From contig JAEOUN010000105.1 in NCBI GenBank assembly GCA_016839245.1, forward strand, positions 1 to 18,504: DNA of 18,504 nucleotides, read 5' to 3'. This DNA comes from Candidatus Thorarchaeota archaeon (GTDB lineage Archaea; Asgardarchaeota; Thorarchaeia; Thorarchaeales; Thorarchaeaceae). The notes below the pieces were generated by a model. The model searched no databases. It had not been told where the DNA came from and saw only the letters and a list, made by a program, of their open reading frames with translations. This document shows positions 5,034-18,504 of this stretch, one piece after another. Positions within the stretch are counted from its first letter, which is position 1. Every line of letters starts with the position of its first letter. Made by a program: the position numbers and the translations under genes.

Positions 5034-6905
5034 CTAATATTCAGACCAAGTCCGTTCCTTGTATTCTGTCCAGGCATAGAACGAAATACCCGCAAGTGCC
5101 ACAATAGTTGGAATTAGGATTAGCATCATAGGAATTGATGCAGTCTCTCTCTCTGCAACAAGAGGATTGGTGCCATTAAGAAACTCGTCTAGGTTAGTTT
5201 TCTCATCTCCATCTGGATCTTCACTTGCGTCATTTCTAAGTGGATTTAGACCATATTCTAGTTCCCAGGCATCTGGGAGGAGGTCAGAATCTGTATCCTC
5301 ACTAAGTGGATTAAGACCAAGGATATACTCCTGAATATTAGTCAATGAATCTCCATCAGCGTCCTCAAGTGCATCATTTGAATTTGTTGGATCAAAACCA
5401 TAAGCGATTTCATACCCATCAGGCATCATATCAAAATCGGAGTCTGAATTATCCATATCCGTCCCAAGAATGATCTCATATGCATCACTAAGCATGTCAG
5501 AATCTGAATCCTTTTCAAACAGTGTTTCATCAAGCCAATATTCTTGACTATCGAAGATGCCATTTCCATCAATATCGCCGTCATATGAATAATGAAACTC
5601 ATATCCGACATTGTGACTATCAGTATTATCCACTCTTAGTCGATAGAGACCTTTCTGTGTAACAGGAATTGTGAAGACATCTGTTGTCTGCCAAGCTGAT
5701 GTACGATCATACGATACATACGCTAAATCTGATCCTGAAGGAGAATAAAGCGCAAATGATGCTGTTCCACCAAACCAGCGTGAAGAAACATTGATTGATG
5801 TAGGTGTGGATATCGGAATATAGAAACTCCTGCTCTTCCCTACTTCTAAGTTAAAGCTCAGATCATATTGAATTGGCTGTCCGTACTTCCTTGACATAGT
5901 AAATGCAATACTTGCACCTATTGCAGCAGTCATTTCTTTTCCAAGATAGTACTTAAAGAGATCATTATTCCATGTGTCAAAAGGTGACCGTATTGTTTCA
6001 TCATTGATAAAGCCAGATTCAATAGCTATTATAGATTGAAAATATCCCCGTTCTTGATAGTATGTCTGTTCTATGTAACGGTTATTCCAATACGGACAAT
6101 CATCACTGGATACAGATTTTATTACGCTGGCTCCAATGTTCTTACTCATCGATTCTGCGAGATTTGCCCAATATTGTCCTATGTGGTAATTATCCTGCCC
6201 TAACTCCATGTAGATCATGTTCAATCTCTCGTCTTGTGGAACACTAAGATCTTGAAGTAGAAGAGCTTCCACGGTATAAACCATGTAGAACTCCACGCTT
6301 TGATTATAGAACCAGTTGGCTACTTCTGCTGGTCCAAATGGCCCCCATTCTACATATCTTGCATTACTTGCTACAAAATAGATGTCTAGAGGCCAAGAAT
6401 AAAGAGAGAATGGTTCAATCAAAGCTAACATTGTGGCAATCCCTGCACCTCCCTCATTGGCTCCGAGAGAACTAAACCATGAGTCGTAATGCCCTACAAT
6501 TGCAAAAGCTGGATTATTACCAGGAAGATACCCAGCTAGTTTACCAACAACATTCAAGTGTTTACCAATGACCTGTACTTCCATTCTCCCATTCGACAAG
6601 GCTTCCATTTGATCTATCAAGTAATTCCTAGCTTCAAGATTGTTGCCTGAGACCATATCCGTCGCGTCTAGGATATGTCTGACTCCAATCTCTGTAAAAT
6701 TGCGCACAAATTCTTGATAATTATCATACGTGATTGCTGTGAAGATGTCTTGAGAAAGATCTGTACCATATACTCTTGGAATTGTTGGATTCTGTTGGCC
6801 TGACTGAGGTACAGTATCTATCTCTGCATGACTGATACCTCGAGAACTTTGGATAGGTATCGAAATGCTGAAGATAATTAATACAACCAACAGATACTTT
6901 TTCAT
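5034..6905 (-). CDS. Secreted membrane-anchored M28-fold protein, catalytic site lost (left copy)
   Basis: A 623-residue surface protein. A signal peptide is at 1-23 (MKKYLLVVLIIFSISIPIQS), an M28 aminopeptidase-like domain at about 45-340, a PPC-like beta-sandwich at about 350-440, and at least five Asp-rich calcium-binding repeats of the thrombospondin type 3/EF-loop kind at about 440-580 (for example DIDGNGIFDSQE, DADGDSLTNIQE). A transmembrane helix at about 590-611 and a short charged tail complete it. Compared with the intact paralogue at 9683-11509, only His139 of the zinc site remains. The bridging Asp is Glu151, the Glu-Glu pair is replaced by Arg-Tyr near 183-184, the later Asp is Glu213, and the last His ligand is Arg307. 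The SDH segment is gone too. It is very probably not a peptidase and may be a binding or scaffold protein. There is no clear ribosome site, so the start rests on the signal peptide. Confidence 0.9.
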   Translation of the reverse strand: MKKYLLVVLIIFSISIPIQSSRGISHAEIDTVPQSGQQNPTIPRVYGTDLSQDIFTAITYDNYQEFVRNFTEIGVRHILDATDMVSGNNLEARNYLIDQMEALSNGRMEVQVIGKHLNVVGKLAGYLPGNNPAFAIVGHYDSWFSSLGANEGGAGIATMLALIEPFSLYSWPLDIYFVASNARYVEWGPFGPAEVANWFYNQSVEFYMVYTVEALLLQDLSVPQDERLNMIYMELGQDNYHIGQYWANLAESMSKNIGASVIKSVSSDDCPYWNNRYIEQTYYQERGYFQSIIAIESGFINDETIRSPFDTWNNDLFKYYLGKEMTAAIGASIAFTMSRKYGQPIQYDLSFNLEVGKSRSFYIPISTPTSINVSSRWFGGTASFALYSPSGSDLAYVSYDRTSAWQTTDVFTIPVTQKGLYRLRVDNTDSHNVGYEFHYSYDGDIDGNGIFDSQEYWLDETLFEKDSDSDMLSDAYEIILGTDMDNSDSDFDMMPDGYEIAYGFDPTNSNDALEDADGDSLTNIQEYILGLNPLSEDTDSDLLPDAWELEYGLNPLRNDASEDPDGDEKTNLDEFLNGTNPLVAERETASIPMMLILIPTIVALAGISFYAWTEYKERTWSEY

Positions 6906-9682: not shown

Positions 9683-11509
9683 CTATCGTTTACGATACCA
9701 ACTAGTCATACCTACGATTAGAATTGCTGCCACTCCTATCACAATTCCTGGCGTCAGCGTTAGAACCTGGGGGATACCATCTGCAATGTTAGGGTCAGTC
9801 CCTCTTAGATATTCTTCAATATTAGTAAGATTGTCATTATCTGGGTCTTCCTGTGAATCATCAACTAGCGGATTCAATCCATAGATATATTCCCAAGAAT
9901 CAGGGAGTTGATCCGAATCAGAATCGACAAGATTTGGATTTGATCCAAATTGGTATTCTTGTAGATTTGTTAACGAATCCCCATCATAATCTAATATTGC
10001 ATCAGATGGGTCCAATGGATTAAGGTTATTCTCAATCTCATAGCCATCAGGTAACAAATCTGAATCTGAGTCTGCTGAGTCCAAGGAAGTTCCAAGCAAC
10101 ATTTCTTCTCCATCACTTATAGAATCCAAGTCCGTATCAATCTGAAAATACTCATTATCAATCCAAAACTCTTGACTATCTGGTATGTCATTTCCTTCAA
10201 TATCTGTGTCATATTGCCAAAATAGCTCATGACCTGTTGTTGTTCTTCCATGATTCAGGATATTTAGGTAGTAACGTCCTTCATTTGATACGGATATCTC
10301 AAAAATTAATTTTGATGTCCAAGGATAAGCATTATCAAATACATGCTTTTCGATAAGATTTCCATTAGGGCCGTAGAGTGCAAATGTTGCTCCTCCACCA
10401 TACCATCTTGCAGTCACATTGAGCATGGTTGGTCCAGAGATGACAAAACTAAAATTCCTATTATTTCCAGGGAGAAGATCAAAATTCTTGCCAGAGGTAA
10501 TTGGTTCTCCATAGGTTCTGGACATGGTGAATGCTATACTTGAGCCAATAGCTTTCACTGCTTGACTAGCAATGTCATAGTCATAATCTTGGTTATCCCA
10601 ACTATCTCCTGATGTATGAAACCATCTGTCATACGCTCCACCGCTCTCATGTACAAATAGAGATGCTCCATATCCATTTTCAATAAAGGAATAATGGTCT
10701 GAGCTTTCCCATACGGGAAAATCATCAGAATTGATTGGTACAATAATGTCTTGTCCATAATTCATAGACATCATTGATACTAGGTCTGCCCAATAATGAC
10801 CGACATGATATTGTCCTGCCCGATATGCTACAAGGACTGTAGGATTGTTTGGATCTGGTACTAATAACATGTCAACATTATAATAGACTAAGATGTCAAT
10901 ATCACGTTGTACAAACTCCATCGCGACTTCCTTAGAACCATAGAGTCCCAATTCCTCTGCATTCCACGCTCCGAAGTAAATGTCAAGAGGCCAACTGTAT
11001 TGCGACATGACCCGAGCAATCTCAAGCATCATGGCGATGCCTGTTCCATCATCATTCGCTCCAGGACTCACCGTTATACTGTCATAATGCCCTCCGACAA
11101 GAATGACTGGGGCTTTAACAGGTAGATATCCCGGAAGCCTGCCAAGTACTGATTTGTAATCGCCAATAACTTCTACCTCAATTCTCTCATTGGAAACCTC
11201 TGTCAATTCCTCAATAATCCACTCTCGTGCATCATTATTTTGAGAACTTGCTAATTCTGGTGCTTGAATCCAACGAGAACCATTTTCTGTCAACTCTTTG
11301 ACGAAGGTCGCGAATGATCTCCTAGATATAGAATTGAAAATCTCTCTAGATTTATCAATGCCATATATTCGCTCCGGACTCTCCAGTGTTTCCTCTGCCA
11401 ATGCATCAGTTCTGGTCGGTATTATGTACGTTTGAATCTCAAAAGGAGTCTTAACTGGGATGATGAGAAGAGCAATACAGATTATTGTAACGACTGCGAG
11501 ATTTTTCAT
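9683..11509 (-). CDS. Secreted membrane-anchored M28 family zinc metallopeptidase (catalytic residues intact)
   Basis: A 608-residue surface peptidase, probably an aminopeptidase using two zinc ions. A signal peptide is at 1-20, and the M28 domain at about 48-335. Its metal ligands are His141 (GHYDS), Asp153 (GANDDG), Glu186, Asp213 (NVDM) and His298 (FHTSGDSW), and Glu185 is the catalytic base (AEELG). The conserved SSDHYSF segment is at 269-275. A PPC-like beta-sandwich occupies about 340-435, and Asp-rich calcium-binding repeats about 435-575 (for example DYDGDSLTNLQE, DPDNDNLTNIEE). A transmembrane helix at about 582-602 and the basic end WYRKR anchor it with the enzyme outside. The start has a GAGGT site six bases upstream, lying in the 19-base gap after the preceding M28-type gene, so the two are probably one transcript. 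It is the only copy of the three likely to be active. Confidence 0.93.
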   Translation of the reverse strand: MKNLAVVTIICIALLIIPVKTPFEIQTYIIPTRTDALAEETLESPERIYGIDKSREIFNSISRRSFATFVKELTENGSRWIQAPELASSQNNDAREWIIEELTEVSNERIEVEVIGDYKSVLGRLPGYLPVKAPVILVGGHYDSITVSPGANDDGTGIAMMLEIARVMSQYSWPLDIYFGAWNAEELGLYGSKEVAMEFVQRDIDILVYYNVDMLLVPDPNNPTVLVAYRAGQYHVGHYWADLVSMMSMNYGQDIIVPINSDDFPVWESSDHYSFIENGYGASLFVHESGGAYDRWFHTSGDSWDNQDYDYDIASQAVKAIGSSIAFTMSRTYGEPITSGKNFDLLPGNNRNFSFVISGPTMLNVTARWYGGGATFALYGPNGNLIEKHVFDNAYPWTSKLIFEISVSNEGRYYLNILNHGRTTTGHELFWQYDTDIEGNDIPDSQEFWIDNEYFQIDTDLDSISDGEEMLLGTSLDSADSDSDLLPDGYEIENNLNPLDPSDAILDYDGDSLTNLQEYQFGSNPNLVDSDSDQLPDSWEYIYGLNPLVDDSQEDPDNDNLTNIEEYLRGTDPNIADGIPQVLTLTPGIVIGVAAILIVGMTSWYRKR

Positions 11510-11528: not shown

Positions 11529-13376
11529 TCAGAATATCTCATCTCTTCGAACGTAAAGAACTATTACTATTGACGCAATCGCTGCAACTGGCAATATCAT
11601 CCATACCATGGGATTCTGTTGTATTGCTTTCTCTTGGGGATTCGAACCCTGCAAATATTCTTCCAAGTTTGTCAAATTGTCTCCATCTGGATCTAAATCT
11701 GCATCATTTACGAGTGGATCAAGTCCGTTTTCTAGCTCCCATAAGTCATCCATACCATCATTATCAGTGTCTTTACTAAATGGATTAAGCCCGCCAAGAT
11801 ATTCTTGGGCGTTTGTGAGGCCATCCCCATCGGCATCAAGATTTGCATCACTTGCATCCAAGGGATCGAATCCCATATCGACTTCATATTTATCAGGCAT
11901 ATTATCATTATCTGAGTCCGGACTATTCGGATTCAATCCCCAAAAGATCTCGTATGCATCTGATATTCCATCAGAGTCCTTATCTGATACAAAATAGCTT
12001 TGATCCAACCAATATTCGTCTTTATCCAATATTCCATTGCCATCGATATCAGTATCATATGTAAATTCGAGTTCGTATCCAACGCTTTGAATACTTGGAT
12101 TATAGACAAAAATTGAATACAATCCCTTCTCCGTCAACATCTGACTGAAGATATCTGTTGCTTCCCATGCTGATGCTTTGCTATACGCTTTGGTTACAAT
12201 GGGATTTCCTTCAGGATTGAGAATTAAAAACGTAGAGGGTCCACCAAACCAACGGGCTGACACATTGACTATTGTCGGTGTTGTCACTGCAAAATAGTAT
12301 CTTTGCGTGGAACCCGCGCCCACACTAAATGCTTCATCAATCGTTGTCGATTCACCATATGCCCTACTCATTGTAAATGCTACACTTGCACCGATGACTC
12401 CAGCCACCTCTTTGCCAAGGTCATATCTGTAATATGGATTTGACCATAAGTCATCTGAATTCTGATACGCGTCGTCGTTAGTACGACCGGATTCGAACGC
12501 GCAGACAAGATTGGTAAAGGTGCGTTCGAAAAATGCAAAATGATCTGATCTCTCCCATAGGTAGAATGAGTTTGATGATATTGGAACGATGACATCTACG
12601 CCATAATTATTACTCATCATTCGAGTGAGTTCAGCCCAGTATTGACTTTTATGATAATTCTCAATGCCCCCTTCTAAATATCCCATCTGAACCCTTTCAT
12701 CAGGCATTACAGAAACGCCAGGGACAAGAATAGTATCAATGTTGTATAGAGTAAGAATTTCAATACCTCTCTGTTTGAAGAAAAGTGCTACTTCTGGGCT
12801 TCCTGTCATGAAATCGAATGTAAACAGTCCATTGAAAGCTATGAAATAAATGTCAAGTGGCCACTCATATTTGGACAGTGCTTCAACCAAAGAGAGAACT
12901 GCTGCAATTCCACTTCCATCGCAATTGGCACCTGCTGAATTCTGGGGGCTATCATAATGTGCAGAAATAACAATGGCTGAGTGATTACCTGGCAGATAAC
13001 CCTTCAACTTTCCTACAATGTTTAAGTGCTTACCAATAAGCTCAATCTCAATTCTTCTGTTAGACAATTCTTCCATTTGCTGCATGATGTATCTTCTTGC
13101 ATAGTAGTTGCTACTGCTGTTAACCATAGTATAATCCATTATCCAACGAGAACCATTATCAGTAAATTCATGAACAAGGTTCCTGTAAAAATAAAAATCA
13201 ATATCGAGGTAAATCTCTTGAGCTAAATTCACACCATAGACTCTGCGTAAGACTGTCTGCGTCGGTGCTTCTGCAGTCGTATCTGAATTATTATAATAGT
13301 CGATTAATGGTGCGGTTTGACTTGTAGGCATAAGAATCAGTGTACAAAGAATCAGCACTACCAGCAGTTGTTTCAT
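11529..13376 (-). CDS. Secreted membrane-anchored M28-fold protein, catalytic site degraded (right copy)
   Basis: A 615-residue paralogue of the two other M28-type proteins. I placed the start at the ATG at 13376, because this gives the signal peptide MKQLLVVLILCTLILMPTSQ, which matches the paralogues; an upstream TTG at 13442 would bury it. Domain order is the same: M28 fold at about 45-340, PPC-like sandwich at about 345-440, Asp-rich calcium repeats at about 440-580 (DIDGNGILDKDE, DADGDGLTNAQE, DPDGDNLTNLEE), and a transmembrane helix at about 590-608 with a short charged end. The metal site is partly lost. His140 and Asp214 remain, but the bridging Asp is Cys152, the Glu-Glu pair is Gly-Leu (183-184), and the last His is Gln305. 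The SDH segment is kept. Peptidase activity is unlikely. The ribosome site is weak (GGGG). Confidence 0.9.
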   Translation of the reverse strand: MKQLLVVLILCTLILMPTSQTAPLIDYYNNSDTTAEAPTQTVLRRVYGVNLAQEIYLDIDFYFYRNLVHEFTDNGSRWIMDYTMVNSSSNYYARRYIMQQMEELSNRRIEIELIGKHLNIVGKLKGYLPGNHSAIVISAHYDSPQNSAGANCDGSGIAAVLSLVEALSKYEWPLDIYFIAFNGLFTFDFMTGSPEVALFFKQRGIEILTLYNIDTILVPGVSVMPDERVQMGYLEGGIENYHKSQYWAELTRMMSNNYGVDVIVPISSNSFYLWERSDHFAFFERTFTNLVCAFESGRTNDDAYQNSDDLWSNPYYRYDLGKEVAGVIGASVAFTMSRAYGESTTIDEAFSVGAGSTQRYYFAVTTPTIVNVSARWFGGPSTFLILNPEGNPIVTKAYSKASAWEATDIFSQMLTEKGLYSIFVYNPSIQSVGYELEFTYDTDIDGNGILDKDEYWLDQSYFVSDKDSDGISDAYEIFWGLNPNSPDSDNDNMPDKYEVDMGFDPLDASDANLDADGDGLTNAQEYLGGLNPFSKDTDNDGMDDLWELENGLDPLVNDADLDPDGDNLTNLEEYLQGSNPQEKAIQQNPMVWMILPVAAIASIVIVLYVRRDEIF

Positions 13377-13445
13377 GGTTTCTGCCCCAGTAAAGTCATT
13401 GAATAAGATTCTCCTATAAGCAATGATGATTAGGTATTTCAAGCT

Positions 13446-13455: not shown

Positions 13456-13489
13456 ATATAGGTTGAATAACAAATGGGTTGGATTACTA

Positions 13490-14764
13490 ATGCCATTGAC
13501 AGATTATCCATCGGTTCTTCAAATTAAGGATCCTATCCATGGATATGTCGCCCTCACTGAAGTTGAAAAAGACATTCTTGATTTGAAAATAACTCAGAGA
13601 TTGAGATATATCAAGGGTCCTGCTGGACTATCATATGTTTACCCGGGAGCTGATATCTCTCTTATGGGACGAACTCTTGGTTTTCTTCAAATGACCAGAA
13701 TTTTCCTTGAATACCTTGGTGGAACTATTGAAGAGATTCAGAGAGCCAGATTGGCCTCTCTGACACTGATGGTCGTAAATGGACCATGGGCAAATGTGAT
13801 GAAAGAGTATGTCACTGTTCGTGGTATTCCTCCATTGAAATTAGCAACATCTGTCCTAAAACACACAATCATCGGTGATATAATTGAGAAGCATGGTTTC
13901 TCAAGAGATGATATTCAAGATACTCTAGAGAAAGGTGTACCAATTAAAGGTGTAAAATTGGATTTAATCAATTGTCCAATCAATCCCGAGTTAATAGATA
14001 ATCTTCAACGTGACTCCTATTTTGCTGGCGTTGATTACGCACAGCTAGAGTTTCATAGATTATTCGATTCCACCAGAATTGCGAAAAACAAGATTGCTGT
14101 TGAACGAAGCTCTCTCTATACACTTGAATCATACCTCTCAGCTGCCGTAAATATGTTTGATGCGGTCTATTTTCACAAGACTGTACGTGCAACGGAGTTG
14201 ATGCTATTGCGAGTGCTTGAAGATGCTGGAACTCAATTATTCAATCTTAGTCTAGATGACCCAAATAGCTTCCTGCAATACGACGATCTTTCATTTCTTT
14301 ATCGCCTTCTTAATATCAATCCTGATGCAACTGAAGAGATGCGATTGGCAAATCGTTTATTTTCAGAGTATAGTAGGCGCAACCTGATTAAATTAGTCAG
14401 CACTCGTTCTATATCTGATCCTGCTTTTTTGAACAAACTAACTCGACCTGATGGTTTGTTCGAAATCGAGCGTGAAATTGCAGAGGACGCAGGTATTGAT
14501 CCTCAAAATGTCTATGTGGACTTTCCTGATAGACCTTCAGTCACATTTTATCCTGGGAAATTCAGTTTGGATGATATTGTTCTATTTGAAAGAGGATCAT
14601 CAGGTTATGAATTTTGGAAAATAAGTGATGTAAGTCCTGTTGCCAGAAGCTATTCTCGCATATTGAAACCAGTGCGAGTCTATACGACTAAAGGATATCG
14701 ATCAAAGTTGAAGAAGGCTGCAGATAGTGTCCTAGAAAGTGCTGATGGTGCAGGGACTAGTTAG
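13490..14764 (+). CDS. HD superfamily (COG1078/SAMHD1-like) protein lacking the HD metal site
   Basis: The 424-residue product follows the layout of COG1078 phosphohydrolases. Residues 12-20 are IKDPIHGYV, followed by the QRLRYIKGPAGLSYVYPGA segment, the RDSYFAGVDY segment at 174-183, VYFHKTVRATELM at 226-238, and the family's C-terminal region with YVDFPDRPS and PVRVYTTKGY. Functional relatives bind a metal through His, His-Asp and Asp. Here the HxxxEH-type segment after the YPG motif is ADISLMGRTLG without histidine. The usual LHDIGHGPFSH is replaced by LMVVNGPWAN, and the D-x-D-R aspartate by NPELID. All four ligands appear lost, so hydrolase activity is unlikely and a regulatory role is possible. 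A TTG at 13463 would add nine residues. I prefer the ATG because the TATA-like element at 13446-13455 fits a short leader there. Confidence 0.88.
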   Translation: MPLTDYPSVLQIKDPIHGYVALTEVEKDILDLKITQRLRYIKGPAGLSYVYPGADISLMGRTLGFLQMTRIFLEYLGGTIEEIQRARLASLTLMVVNGPWANVMKEYVTVRGIPPLKLATSVLKHTIIGDIIEKHGFSRDDIQDTLEKGVPIKGVKLDLINCPINPELIDNLQRDSYFAGVDYAQLEFHRLFDSTRIAKNKIAVERSSLYTLESYLSAAVNMFDAVYFHKTVRATELMLLRVLEDAGTQLFNLSLDDPNSFLQYDDLSFLYRLLNINPDATEEMRLANRLFSEYSRRNLIKLVSTRSISDPAFLNKLTRPDGLFEIEREIAEDAGIDPQNVYVDFPDRPSVTFYPGKFSLDDIVLFERGSSGYEFWKISDVSPVARSYSRILKPVRVYTTKGYRSKLKKAADSVLESADGAGTS

Positions 14765-14791: not shown

Positions 14792-14829
14792 GATGAAGCG
14801 CTCATTTGTATTCTCATTTGGTGAAGGAA

Positions 14830-15327
14830 ATGATTGAAGAACCGATTAGTATGTTTGAGCAGATTAAGAATGATCCAAATTATCTCATGATACTCGCAGG
14901 AGCAATCATTTGGTATATTGGCTTCTATGCTGGTTTTCTTGAAGGTATACTGGTTTCTACAGGATTCGTCCTAGTCTGTTTTGCTGCAGCTCTCAATGCA
15001 ATTCGTAGAGCAATTGATATCGCATGGCCTGGTTTGCTCATCGGTGGCCTTATTCAAGTTCTAGGATATTATTTTGAATGGTTTCCGTTCATAGGCAATC
15101 TCTTGATAGTTGTTGGTGGCGTTTTAATCATATATTTCGCTATTCCATTAGCAATTCAAAAAGGAGAGCTACCGATTCTTACACAGATTCAGAAAATAAT
15201 TGAAGCACAGAAAAAATCTCTTAAGAAGAAGAAGAAAGACGAATCTGAATCCGAACTTGATGAAAGCGTAGGTGATAATGAATCATCTGATACCATTTCT
15301 GACGAAGATGAAGTGACAGAGGATTAA
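14830..15327 (+). CDS. Small integral membrane protein with charged C-terminal tail
   Basis: I do not recognise a family. The 165-residue product has four predicted membrane helices at about 18-37, 38-56, 66-83 and 86-109, with very short loops (LNAIRRAIDIAWP is the longest). A cytosolic-looking tail follows: an amphipathic helix (ILTQIQKIIEAQKK), then a basic run (KKSLKKKKK), then about 30 strongly acidic and Ser-rich residues. The start is decided by GGTGA with five bases of spacing before the ATG at 14830; GTG at 14821 and TTG at 14806 lie further upstream without such a site. The charge-split tail suggests a protein or lipid interaction region. It is followed on the same strand by the zinc-ribbon genes, 88 bases away. 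Confidence 0.82.
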   Translation: MIEEPISMFEQIKNDPNYLMILAGAIIWYIGFYAGFLEGILVSTGFVLVCFAAALNAIRRAIDIAWPGLLIGGLIQVLGYYFEWFPFIGNLLIVVGGVLIIYFAIPLAIQKGELPILTQIQKIIEAQKKSLKKKKKDESESELDESVGDNESSDTISDEDEVTED

Positions 15328-15415
15328 TGTGGAAATCTAAGTAGATATCAAAGAATCCCTTAAGAAGCAAAGTTTCACACCTAGTACTACAAAGATATCC
15401 AATCAGGTGTGTACT

Positions 15416-17692
15416 TTGTTCTCTTGCCAAAGATGCCGTGAACCACTCTATATCCGAAATGTTGAGATAAAAGACCGAATTCTCACCTTTGAAACTCAAT
15501 GCCTTAATGGTCATAAGAGTATACGACGACTTGCAGAACATCAACTTCAGGACATGGGTGAGGAGATTTTCAAGAAATTATTCACTTGTTTTGATTGCGG
15601 GTCCAACATGACCCTCGTTGATTCTCAGATTAAGGGAACAAAGATTGAAGGATTTTTCTTATGTCCTCGACATGGACTTCAGAAAAGAGAATATCCTTCA
15701 TCTTTTTCTTCCATAGTCAATATTGCAGCTTCTGATATTGATAGTCCTCGATCAATAGTGGATTCATTTAGATGCCCTGATTGTGGTCTTATTTTCGCGA
15801 TAAGTGAAATAGAGATACGTAAGGGCATAATAGAAGTTGCTGTAAAGTGTGCAAATGGTCATAGAGCAGAGCGCTATCTTCCAAGCAATATTGAGCAATC
15901 CATGTTGAAGAGAATCCTTCAGAGAGTAGTGCACTGTGATAAGTGTGGAATGCCTGGTCACATAGCGAATGCTGAAGAATCTGGAAATTTAGTTAGAATT
16001 TATTCATCGTGTCCCGTCCATGGGATTACAAAAAAAGACATTCCTCTCTCCTATTTGGAACCCTTACGCATAGCTGTATCTGAGATTCCTGAAGATGCTG
16101 TCCTTAAAGCAACTCTTACATCACGTGATTGCAGACAACCTTTGGCTATTCGTAGTATTGAAGATGATAAATCTGGATACAAATTGAAGTGTGTCTGCCC
16201 GGGCACTAAACATGCCACCGAAAGAATTCTTCCGCTGACTTGGACAGAATCCATTGCGAAAGGCATTACATCTGCGATTTTAACATGTGATGAATGTGGA
16301 AATCTAACTCATATTCTTTCAAGGCGGAAAAGCAGCAAAAAAGTAAGTTTTCATATTGTCTGTCCTGTTCATGGAGTGATGCAAAGAGAAGCTCCCCCTT
16401 CAGTCTTTGAAATAATCTCTGATTTTGAAGAATCACTTGACCATATTCCATCGATGGTAAAGAGCTTGAGTTGCACCAAATGCAAGATGCCTTTGAATCT
16501 GAAAGATGTTGAGGAAAAGCGTGGGCTTATTGAGTTTGATGTCGAATGTAGAAATGGTCATAGCAGTAAGCGATTGTTTAAACCTGGCCTAACTCCTAAC
16601 ACTCTTGTTGACCTTTACAAGCGGTTTTATCAGTGCCCCGAATGTTATGAATCTCTAGAACTTGTCTACATTGAACCTGGCGCCAGAGAAGACAGAGTTG
16701 TTCTCCTATGTTCGATACATGGCAAATTTGTTTTTGATATTCCTCCTGATCATGCAAAGGCGATGCAAGCTGCATATCAAGAGATTCAAGCAGATAAGAG
16801 TAAACCTCCCGTTGAGGTTCCTGAAGAGACTCCTCCTGAAACTTTTGAAGTTGAGGTCGAATCAGTCGATGATTCAGAAATTGGTGTACAAGTGTTTCGG
16901 GGATGTGAGATAGTAGGTGGCAAGTTTGATTATAAAGTGAAAGTGATGAATAATAGTGGTTACGTCATAACTAATGTCACTGTCAGTATAGTTGCTTATC
17001 CTATGGATTGCATGGAGCTAGCAGGAGAGAGTGTAAAGACAATCTCTCGGATAGAGGTTGGAGGTTTTAGGTCACCACAGTTCACGCTGTATCCAACGAA
17101 AGATTGTGTTCAAGGAAAAATCGTTGCAACTGTATCTTACATTGATTTTCTTGATCAATTGCACACACAGAGTGTTGAACCATACCTCATCCGTTCAGTC
17201 TGTGATCTCCTACAACCTTCCAAAAAGACATCTGTTGATTTTGATTTACTTCTTCAGAATTTAGAAAAGACCCACCAAGAACAGACTTTGGATTGGAATG
17301 CACAGGTACTCTTTACAAAGGCTGAGAAGATACTCCCACTCAAGAATTTTCACGTTGTCGATACTGAGGAACACATTGTATCTGGTGAATTCATTGGTAC
17401 CATAAGAGGATATGCAGAAGGCAAGTATACTAAAAACAAAGTGGCTGTTATAATGATGATTTGCGGGCCTGAGAACAGTCGTCATTCTACAGTCAAAGTT
17501 GAGGCTTTAGGCGAGGACGTTTCGATGTTGCCTACAACAATTGATGAACTAGCTGATACAATGGACTCTTGGATTTGTCTTAGATGTGGTGCTCCACTTG
17601 ATCCTGATGAAGTTGAAGAACTAGGAAGACGTCAACCAATTCGATGCAAATACTGTACTCATACGCTAACAATCGCCCTCTATCTTCAATAG
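15416..17692 (+). CDS. Multi-zinc-ribbon protein with appendage-like C-terminal domains
   Basis: A 758-residue cytosolic protein. Residues 1-440 hold four repeats of about 115 residues, each with two different ribbons. Type A is CxxC...Cx3H with a C-x-NGH end (Cys4/7/29-His33, Cys120/123/145-His149, Cys353/356/378-His382). Type B is CxxC...Cx2H with a CPxHG-like end (Cys58/61/83-His86, Cys174/177/199-His202, Cys291/294/316-His319, Cys407/410/432-His435). The third A ribbon is degenerate, lacking its first Cys. A Pro/Glu linker (about 463-487) leads to a beta-sandwich at about 488-600, an alpha/beta domain at about 605-715, and a last ribbon (Cys721/724/744/747). The order sandwich-then-platform recalls adaptin and gamma-COP appendages, which is inference. 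The TTG start aligns MFSCQRC with MFVCNKC of the downstream paralogue and has AGGTG six bases upstream; a GTG at 15407 is the alternative. Function is unknown. Confidence 0.85.
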   Translation: MFSCQRCREPLYIRNVEIKDRILTFETQCLNGHKSIRRLAEHQLQDMGEEIFKKLFTCFDCGSNMTLVDSQIKGTKIEGFFLCPRHGLQKREYPSSFSSIVNIAASDIDSPRSIVDSFRCPDCGLIFAISEIEIRKGIIEVAVKCANGHRAERYLPSNIEQSMLKRILQRVVHCDKCGMPGHIANAEESGNLVRIYSSCPVHGITKKDIPLSYLEPLRIAVSEIPEDAVLKATLTSRDCRQPLAIRSIEDDKSGYKLKCVCPGTKHATERILPLTWTESIAKGITSAILTCDECGNLTHILSRRKSSKKVSFHIVCPVHGVMQREAPPSVFEIISDFEESLDHIPSMVKSLSCTKCKMPLNLKDVEEKRGLIEFDVECRNGHSSKRLFKPGLTPNTLVDLYKRFYQCPECYESLELVYIEPGAREDRVVLLCSIHGKFVFDIPPDHAKAMQAAYQEIQADKSKPPVEVPEETPPETFEVEVESVDDSEIGVQVFRGCEIVGGKFDYKVKVMNNSGYVITNVTVSIVAYPMDCMELAGESVKTISRIEVGGFRSPQFTLYPTKDCVQGKIVATVSYIDFLDQLHTQSVEPYLIRSVCDLLQPSKKTSVDFDLLLQNLEKTHQEQTLDWNAQVLFTKAEKILPLKNFHVVDTEEHIVSGEFIGTIRGYAEGKYTKNKVAVIMMICGPENSRHSTVKVEALGEDVSMLPTTIDELADTMDSWICLRCGAPLDPDEVEELGRRQPIRCKYCTHTLTIALYLQ

Positions 17693-17767: not shown

Positions 17768-18504
17768 ATGTTCGTCTGTAATAAATGCAAGGAACCTTTC
17801 TATATACTAGGCAGTGAACTCCGTGGTAATACTCTTCGAGTTTATTGTCAATGCTTGAATGGCCATAAAGGAAAGAGGGACATCTCAAAATATCAAGCCG
17901 ACAGCATGGCGCCCGAAGTGTTCAAGGGTCTCTTTACCTGTATAGAATGCGGTTCTACTATGTCACTTCTTCATTCTGATCTTGGTCGCAAAGAGGTTGA
18001 ATACACATTTCTATGTCCTATTCATGGACCTCAATTAAAACGGATTCCTTCATTTTATCATACTGCAGTGACTAGCGCGCTTGGTTCGATTAACGCTGCA
18101 AAATCAATCCTAGATTCTTTGAGTTGCCCGAAATGTGGACAAATCTTCTCTACTCATGATGTTCTTGAGAAAAAGGGAATATTGGAATTTCGGTATCGTT
18201 GCCCCAATGGCCATAAACAAACACGATTTGTTCCTGCTGAGGCTGATTCCTCTATTCTAAAACCCGTATTCAAACGATTACTTCATTGCGAACAGTGTGG
18301 TCTTCCATGTTCGGTTCTAAATTCTAAGACAAAAGGCGAACGAGCTCGAATTGAGATATCTTGCCCTGCTCATGGGAAAACATCCAAAGAATTACCTGCC
18401 AAGCATGCATGGATGATGGAGAAGATTGCTGATGCTATGTCTGAAGGAACTATTGTACGATCCATGTTAAAATGCACACAATGTTCCAATGATTTGTCTA
18501 TTAG
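17768..18504 (+). CDS. Multi-zinc-ribbon protein, paralogue of the preceding gene (3' end outside window)
   Basis: The first 245 residues of a close paralogue of the gene before it, 75 bases downstream on the same strand. The same alternation of ribbons is visible: A1 Cys4/7, then a CLNGH end; B1 TCIECGS with a CPIHG end; A2 SCPKCGQ with a CPNGH end; B2 HCEQCGL with a CPAHG end; and the start of A3 (KCTQCSN). In this copy A3 keeps its CxxC, unlike the upstream gene. The start ATG at 17768 begins MFVCNKC and is preceded by an AAGGTAAGG stretch. The pair arose by tandem duplication. Whether this copy also carries the sandwich and platform domains lies beyond the window. Confidence 0.85.
   Translation, partial: MFVCNKCKEPFYILGSELRGNTLRVYCQCLNGHKGKRDISKYQADSMAPEVFKGLFTCIECGSTMSLLHSDLGRKEVEYTFLCPIHGPQLKRIPSFYHTAVTSALGSINAAKSILDSLSCPKCGQIFSTHDVLEKKGILEFRYRCPNGHKQTRFVPAEADSSILKPVFKRLLHCEQCGLPCSVLNSKTKGERARIEISCPAHGKTSKELPAKHAWMMEKIADAMSEGTIVRSMLKCTQCSNDLSI

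Follow-up and report, generated by a model that had tools for sequence, protein, structure and literature searches.

Positions 1 to 18,504 of contig JAEOUN010000105.1 from Candidatus Thorarchaeota archaeon, the whole stretch of DNA that was analysed and is called the window below, contain a gene for a protein in which a predicted coat-appendage fold, the ear of adaptins and COP subunits, stands behind a rod of zinc ribbons; this architecture is supported by structure modelling. We consider it fairly probable that the protein is a soluble, cytosolic scaffold or adaptor of Thorarchaeota, with a C-terminal module related to the eukaryotic adaptin/COP ear and connected to the zinc-ribbon rod by a flexible hinge. 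Most likely, the zinc-ribbon array would anchor the protein to a partner or complex, and from the end of the hinge the appendage may recruit other proteins by weak contacts on its sandwich and platform, by analogy with the ears of coats. The recruited proteins might include trafficking factors, and the window protein might have a role at vesicles.

Predicted fold of the appendage module

The open reading frame (ORF) extends from an in-frame GTG at 15407 to 17692 on the forward strand and encodes 761 amino acids; residue numbers throughout refer to this reading. The alternative TTG start at 15416 (758 amino acids) fits the start with MFSC and the length of 758 amino acids seen in many homologues, as well as the coordinates of the original prediction. 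In a search of 5.8 billion proteins, 188 homologues were found at E ≤ 0.001, with source names that were mostly Candidatus Thorarchaeota with a few other Asgard labels among the 120 matches listed. The 64 full-length or near full-length homologues that form alignment A1 (65 rows including the window protein) share 56–87% identity with the window protein, indicating that the ORF is a real gene of a conserved Thorarchaeota family. Hydropathy gave no sign of a transmembrane segment, and a cytosolic location is probable.

15416..17692, forward strand: whole gene, with zinc-ribbon array, hinge, predicted coat-appendage module and C-terminal zinc ribbon; 758 amino acids from TTG
16886..17218, forward strand: predicted beta-sandwich subdomain, residues 494–604 (AlphaFold model, Foldseek, VIA)
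17219..17566, forward strand: predicted platform subdomain, alpha-beta-alpha-beta4-alpha, TBP-like, residues 605–720; F612 conserved, tryptophan of FxxxW absent

The AlphaFold model of the 276-residue module reached a mean predicted local distance difference test score (pLDDT) of 95.2 and a predicted template modelling score of 0.80. The original prediction had placed a beta-sandwich at about residues 488–600 and an alpha/beta domain at about 605–715, and the borders in the model differ from these by a few residues. It had also proposed a match to the appendages of vesicle coats, which the structure comparisons bear out. In Foldseek, the first 14 rows were all coat appendages or COPI chains containing them, with E values of 5.7e-10 for beta-COP, 9.7e-10 for AP2 alpha, 2.3e-8 for AP2 beta2 and 5.7e-8 for gamma-COP. 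The same held for the first 14 rows in VIA, 13 of which span both subdomains, the 14th being the AP-4 platform. Beta-COP superposed on both subdomains jointly (3.8 Å over 224 residues in VIA), and the superposition of gamma-COP over both subdomains gave a root-mean-square deviation (rmsd) of 6.8–6.9 Å. The model thus shows an Ig-like beta-sandwich with a platform immediately after it, which is a feature of the coat-appendage fold, and the IG and TBP domain pair by which adaptin-appendage regions are recognised in archaeal proteins. The opposite outcome, a generic Ig sandwich followed by a second domain that is not a platform, was looked for and did not occur. A generic CARDB or Ig-like sandwich was also rejected as the whole answer, since the sandwich-only matches in VIA (Z scores of 12.5 for a TRAP subunit, 12.2 for lacto-N-biosidase and 10.7 for transglutaminase) rank below the 13 two-domain appendage rows. 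By VIA's own rule the TRAP subunit is tied with gamma-COP (13.3–13.4), and sandwich-only rows rank above appendages inside the larger chains 5a1u_E (12.1) and 5nzr_B (11.7).

The sequence identity in the structural matches of both searches was 7–16%, which would be compatible with convergence, i.e. with an independent origin of a sandwich and an alpha/beta domain that resemble an appendage in outline only. We regard this explanation, which overlaps with the functional ones, as quite unlikely, and the joint superposition of both subdomains on beta-COP argues for homology instead.

HEAT-bearing relatives and distribution of the module

Among the relatives of the module is a protein of about 408 amino acids, without predicted membrane segment, in which HEAT repeats, a linker, sandwich and platform follow each other as they do in an adaptin/COP large chain. 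Essentially full-length matches to it were obtained in 21 of 227 Asgard genomes, a further genome has it divided between two contigs, and NCBI labels it 'HEAT repeat domain-containing protein' in several cases. Profile comparisons make the link between these relatives and the window's module a firm one. The module profile A2, with 13 rows and none of them HEAT-bearing, aligned with the HEAT-bearing profile A5 at an hhalign E value of 1.1e-29 over 228 columns and found HEAT-form modules in genomes, the listed matches having E values between about 7e-36 and 3e-25. The 71-row module profile A3 gave E 1.2e-57 against A5; since A3 includes five A5-type proteins, the comparison of A2 with A5 is the clean figure. 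Among 58 HEAT-bearing proteins chosen from 119, HEAT_2 was matched by 56 in Pfam, and 20 matched PF14806, the model of the beta-COP platform, at E ≤ 0.1 (best 7.6e-5, below cut-off), which together with their tie to the module speaks against convergence.

Convergence is favoured by the eukaryotic Pfam models, which stayed below their cut-offs in Asgard genomes when searched with plain HMMER (PF08752 in 0 of 195, PF14806 and PF09066 in 0 of 148 genomes each). PF14806 gave 21 matches at E ≤ 0.1 in the 148 genomes. The best (E 2.2e-5 for one genome, 25.8 bits vs a cut-off of 32.7) lies in an ORF with HEAT repeats and module, and by position five of the 21 (G208, G201, G215, G210 and G224) fall in ORFs of this kind. 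The second-best match falls into a phosphomutase-like, unrelated-looking ORF (L128), and a below-cut-off match was likewise obtained in one of the 14 genomes used as controls. For PF09066, the best match (G128, E 0.0027) was outside any detected module protein and the second (E 0.045) in a paralogue with array and platform.

At the 21 loci of the HEAT form (L114, L149–L168), a gene for a Ras-type GTPase was present within 3 kb in 20 cases and a second one in 17; a WD40 gene was found at 20 and a Roadblock gene at 18 of the loci, and some of the misses (e.g. L160, L163, L165) fall at contig ends. Pfam searches of two of these loci gave PF00071 at 1e-46 to 1e-52 and PF03259 and PF00400 over cut-off. 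Most of the clusters also hold KaiC-like ATPases; the Roadblock proteins are of the Roadblock/LC7 type and the WD40 proteins are propellers.

A pattern scan of one genome per species for 84,980 prokaryote species, which overlooks distant relatives, returned 58 loci. The titles of 56 name Thor-, Loki-, Helarchaeota or Njordarchaeum, and those of the remaining two, L025 and L053 from one isolate, say just 'archaeon'. Profile A2 detected the module family at E ≤ 0.001 in 103 of 227 Asgard genomes, with at least 11 matches in one genome; copy numbers are lower bounds because at most 11 candidates were scored per genome. Close counterparts of the window's module (at least 429 bits, excluding the tandem-module ORF of G195) were present in 27 of the 227 genomes. 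A C4 ribbon was seen in 50 of the 71 module rows, and more are possible since the rows end where the profile match ends.

The module is reused on many carriers. Among 19 proteins scanned with Pfam, SBBP propeller repeats, SBP_bac_5, LVIVD, TPR, LRR, NosD/PKD, HEAT_2 and EAP30/Vps36 exceeded their cut-offs; propeller/BBS families (L110) and PCI (L119) were below cut-off, and L044, L053 and L113 had no Pfam family. HEAT_2 was over cut-off in one, below it in two and absent from one of the four HEAT-form proteins in this set. Six proteins (P0115, P0116, P0117, P0119, P0120 and P0121) carry a tandem pair of modules, and a transmembrane segment ahead of the module is common by hydropathy. Receptor-like proteins (L029, L032, L039, L044, L045, L049) begin with an N-terminal hydrophobic segment and a large N-terminal part, which in some of them holds a propeller or solute-binding domain; another hydrophobic segment then precedes the module, which is presumably cytosolic. 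Clusters L123, L124 and L126 each contain three or four nearby genes for proteins with N-terminal hydrophobic segment(s) and module. In Njordarchaeum (L055:8867-11218), the module is followed by an EAP30/Vps36 (ESCRT-II) domain. Module proteins of about 600 amino acids occur in L110 and, with similar length, in L169–L175. In L110, a beta-propeller with weak, below-cut-off matches to BBS2, BBS7 and PTHB1 precedes the module, which is the order of a BBSome subunit. None of the seven propeller and module loci L169–L175 had a nearby GTPase gene.

Zinc-ribbon array, hinge and neighbouring genes

The N-terminal 460 residues comprise eight ribbon units that alternate between two ligand patterns, first CxxC..CxxxH and then CxxC..CPxHG, giving four pairs; a hinge and a ninth ribbon flank the module:

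15419..15580, forward strand: zinc ribbon 1 (C7, C10, C32, H36)
15581..15763, forward strand: zinc ribbon 2 (C61, C64, C86, H89)
15767..15928, forward strand: zinc ribbon 3 (C123, C126, C148, H152)
15929..16114, forward strand: zinc ribbon 4 (C177, C180, C202, H205)
16124..16279, forward strand: ribbon-like unit 5, degenerate (C242 and C264 only conserved)
16280..16462, forward strand: zinc ribbon 6 (C294, C297, C319, H322)
16466..16627, forward strand: zinc ribbon 7 (C356, C359, C381, H385)
16628..16792, forward strand: zinc ribbon 8 with trailing helix (C410, C413, C435, H438)
16793..16885, forward strand: hinge, acidic and proline-rich, predicted disordered (pLDDT < 50 at residues 469–472 and 474–491)
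17567..17689, forward strand: ninth zinc ribbon, C4, residues 721–761 (C724, C727, C747, C750)

Counted over the A1 rows that have a residue at the respective column, each ligand of units 1–4 and 6–8 is missing from at most three rows (minimum conservation 62/65), whereas in unit 5 conservation is limited to C242 and C264 (61/65 each). The eight-ribbon array of the original prediction therefore stands as eight units, of which seven have a complete site and the remaining one is degenerate. In the AlphaFold model, unit 5 still has strands and a helix despite two of four ligands, suggesting that the site serves a different role. The ninth ribbon, in which each of the four cysteines is kept in 64/64 A1 rows, and the low-confidence hinge had no place in the original prediction.

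Automatic source names such as 'RNA polymerase subunit RPC12/RpoP' and weak ribbon matches, e.g. to Zn_ribbon_RPAB4 and Trm112p, could point to a nucleic-acid-associated protein, active in transcription or translation, with an appendage-like domain as an incidental addition. We consider this improbable, as the window protein exceeds the Pfam cut-off of no zinc-ribbon family and a paralogue with a similar array carries a platform too. An RpoP/RPB12-type protein was rejected as the principal identification, since Zn_ribbon_RPAB4 reached 14.5 bits, below its cut-off of 24.

That paralogue is the next gene, and two further genes upstream recur with the zinc-array gene:

13463..14764, forward strand: HD_assoc_2 protein, conserved neighbour, 41 nt upstream of the membrane-protein gene
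14806..15327, forward strand: small membrane protein with acidic tail, recurrent neighbour, 88 nt upstream of the zinc-array gene
17768..18504, forward strand: paralogue, 75 nt downstream, cut by the window end
5034-6905, 9683-11509 and 11529-13442, reverse strand: three similar-looking ORFs, the last with matches to M28 peptidase and weakly to TSP3 repeats in Pfam

The gaps of 41, 88 and 75 nt would fit an operon. The product of 13463-14764 has the HD-associated region PF19276 and no HD-domain match in Pfam. Among the 26 counterpart loci (L001–L026), its gene was found upstream in 20, the available sequence of the other six ending short; the small membrane protein, possibly a membrane partner of the zinc-array protein, was recognised in 16, and a zinc-array paralogue was located downstream in 15. 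The paralogue was not found in L016, L017, L018, L021, L022, L025 and L026 despite downstream sequence. M28-type genes ahead of the HD gene recur in many relatives. Full-length relatives of the paralogue have a similar array followed by platform and C4 ribbon, with no sandwich. The C-terminus of the paralogue (13 sequences) correspondingly matched the module in its platform and ribbon, with the sandwich left unmatched (columns 122–271; hhalign probability 97.8, E 9.8e-13), so that of the two array proteins at this locus one carries a full appendage and the other a platform alone. A profile of this C-terminus listed no appendage.

Relation to known coat systems and possible role

Several observations weigh against a relationship with coat ears or against a trafficking role of the window protein. 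Direct scans of the protein gave no Pfam or NCBIfam model above cut-off and no significant sequence match in the PDB, no eukaryotic appendage model was among the five Pfam matches of the module at E ≤ 1, and a 13-row module profile found no appendage in the PDB. With A3, which contains five HEAT-bearing relatives among its 71 rows and was searched against 177,635 PDB sequences, coatomer beta ranked first and second (E 0.086 and 0.088), followed by PEX19 (0.2), and the match to residues 826–883 of 9qpq chain H was in register with the platform of the module, a point against convergence. Once the five HEAT rows were removed, the resulting 66-row profile no longer gave coatomer beta at E ≤ 10 and had PEX19 (0.52) as its top match, as convergence would have it, so that the sequence link to beta-COP goes via the HEAT-bearing relatives and the window's own module is without a direct one at the sequence level. 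Searches with profiles built from the HEAT-bearing proteins gave HEAT proteins, and coatomer was not among the matches. The FxxxW tryptophan is absent from all 71 modules, which speaks against a simple transfer of AP2 or beta-COP function. Zinc ribbons are frequent in nucleic-acid machinery too, so this array may have an altogether different ligand. Only one GTPase ORF was near the 58 non-HEAT module loci used as control (each at least 9 kb, 898 kb in total, some overlapping or from the same genomes; the profile was built from the cluster's GTPases), indicating that the GTPase linkage is specific to the HEAT form and not simply transferable to the window protein. The same profile found no GTPase gene in the window, and none of the nine window ORFs scanned with Pfam contained an ESCRT domain.

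The phenylalanine of FxxxW is kept in 65 of the 71 modules, with L in 43, I in 7, F in 3 and W in none at the +4 position. According to PMC2262067, yeast gamma-COP has FxxxF, in contrast to the FxxxW of AP2 and beta-COP platforms, both subdomains of AP2 appendages carry ligand sites, and yeast cannot do without the appendage of beta-COP. As FxxxW is not common to every appendage and the tryptophan is missing here, we hold the claim to 'appendage-like' rather than to a COPI or AP subunit. Recruitment of peptides by the module may be envisaged.

It is also conceivable, although rather unlikely, that the appendage fold is real and serves all-purpose docking in signalling, proteolysis or metabolism, with no tie to membranes or vesicles. 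The neighbours of the gene in the window (M28-type peptidases, the HD_assoc_2 protein and the small membrane protein), the very diverse carriers of the module and the confinement of the GTPase linkage to the HEAT form agree with such a generic scaffold. The transmembrane segment often predicted ahead of the module, the EAP30/Vps36 domain of one relative and the Ras-family GTPase genes near the HEAT-bearing relatives argue against this reading.

Compared with the beta-COP appendage (PDB 9qpq chain H; PF14806 platform), the window protein has a zinc-ribbon array in place of a HEAT trunk and an additional C4 ribbon after the platform, and lacks the FxxxW tryptophan and a direct sequence match. 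The N-terminal HEAT/ARM trunk of COPI/AP large subunits is thus absent, although HEAT repeats occur in 56 of the 58 relatives. The AP2 alpha and beta2 appendages (1b9k, 3hs8, 1e42) differ in their adaptin trunk and ligand-site tryptophan. For the gamma-COP appendage (1pzd, 1r4x), the likeness is limited by the rmsd of 6.8–6.9 Å, the Z score tied with a sandwich-only match and the lack of PF08752 matches over cut-off in 195 Asgard genomes. The BBSome chains 6vbu_9 and 6vbu_1 (BBS9 and BBS1 by chain labels), which also appeared in Foldseek, the latter over 112 columns only, belong to a system with propellers, and the window protein has none.

Archaeal appendage regions as such are already known. 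Makarova et al. (2024; PMC10936438) described adaptin-appendage regions (IG and TBP) in euryarchaeal ESCRT systems and Asgard multidomain proteins; these resemble the window's module in combining a sandwich with a TBP-type platform, and one of them also has a Zn ribbon. Compared by description only, these regions (Meth_adaptin, Asgard ESCRT proteins) differ in being tied to ESCRT loci or to Vps28-C/longin proteins, and the parts of its text that were covered mention neither an eight-unit zinc array with appendage nor a HEAT-appendage fusion. Eme et al. (2023; PMC10307638) reported that Asgard archaea have domains of AP and of COPI, those of AP occurring without fusion to one another, and the Atabeyarchaeia paper lists adaptin domains (PMC11291895). 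In the parts of these three papers that were covered, no zinc-array carrier and no HEAT-appendage protein with GTPases was mentioned, and no titles or abstracts listed in the literature searches (bioRxiv, supplements and figures being outside the scope) were recognised as describing such proteins. The zinc-array carrier and the HEAT-linker-sandwich-platform relatives with nearby Ras-family GTPase genes are therefore apparently new with respect to the literature searched.

More tentatively, and with considerable doubt, Thorarchaeota may run a GTPase-controlled, coat-like sorting system of interchangeable appendage proteins, a prokaryotic cousin or precursor of the COPI, AP and BBSome coats. One part would be the minimal HEAT-linker-ear protein, whose gene stands together with those for a WD40 propeller, a Roadblock protein and two Ras-family GTPases. 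Membrane proteins that resemble receptors and have their ear in the cytosol would form a second part, and soluble scaffolds, the zinc-array protein of the window among them, a third. The origin of vesicle coats is an open question in the study of eukaryote origins, and a widespread module with many carriers and a HEAT fusion beside small GTPases in Thorarchaeota makes this question testable. The findings fit the idea that parts of eukaryotic membrane trafficking began as modular adaptors in archaea, and the window protein would show the ear on a quite different scaffold, a rod of zinc ribbons.
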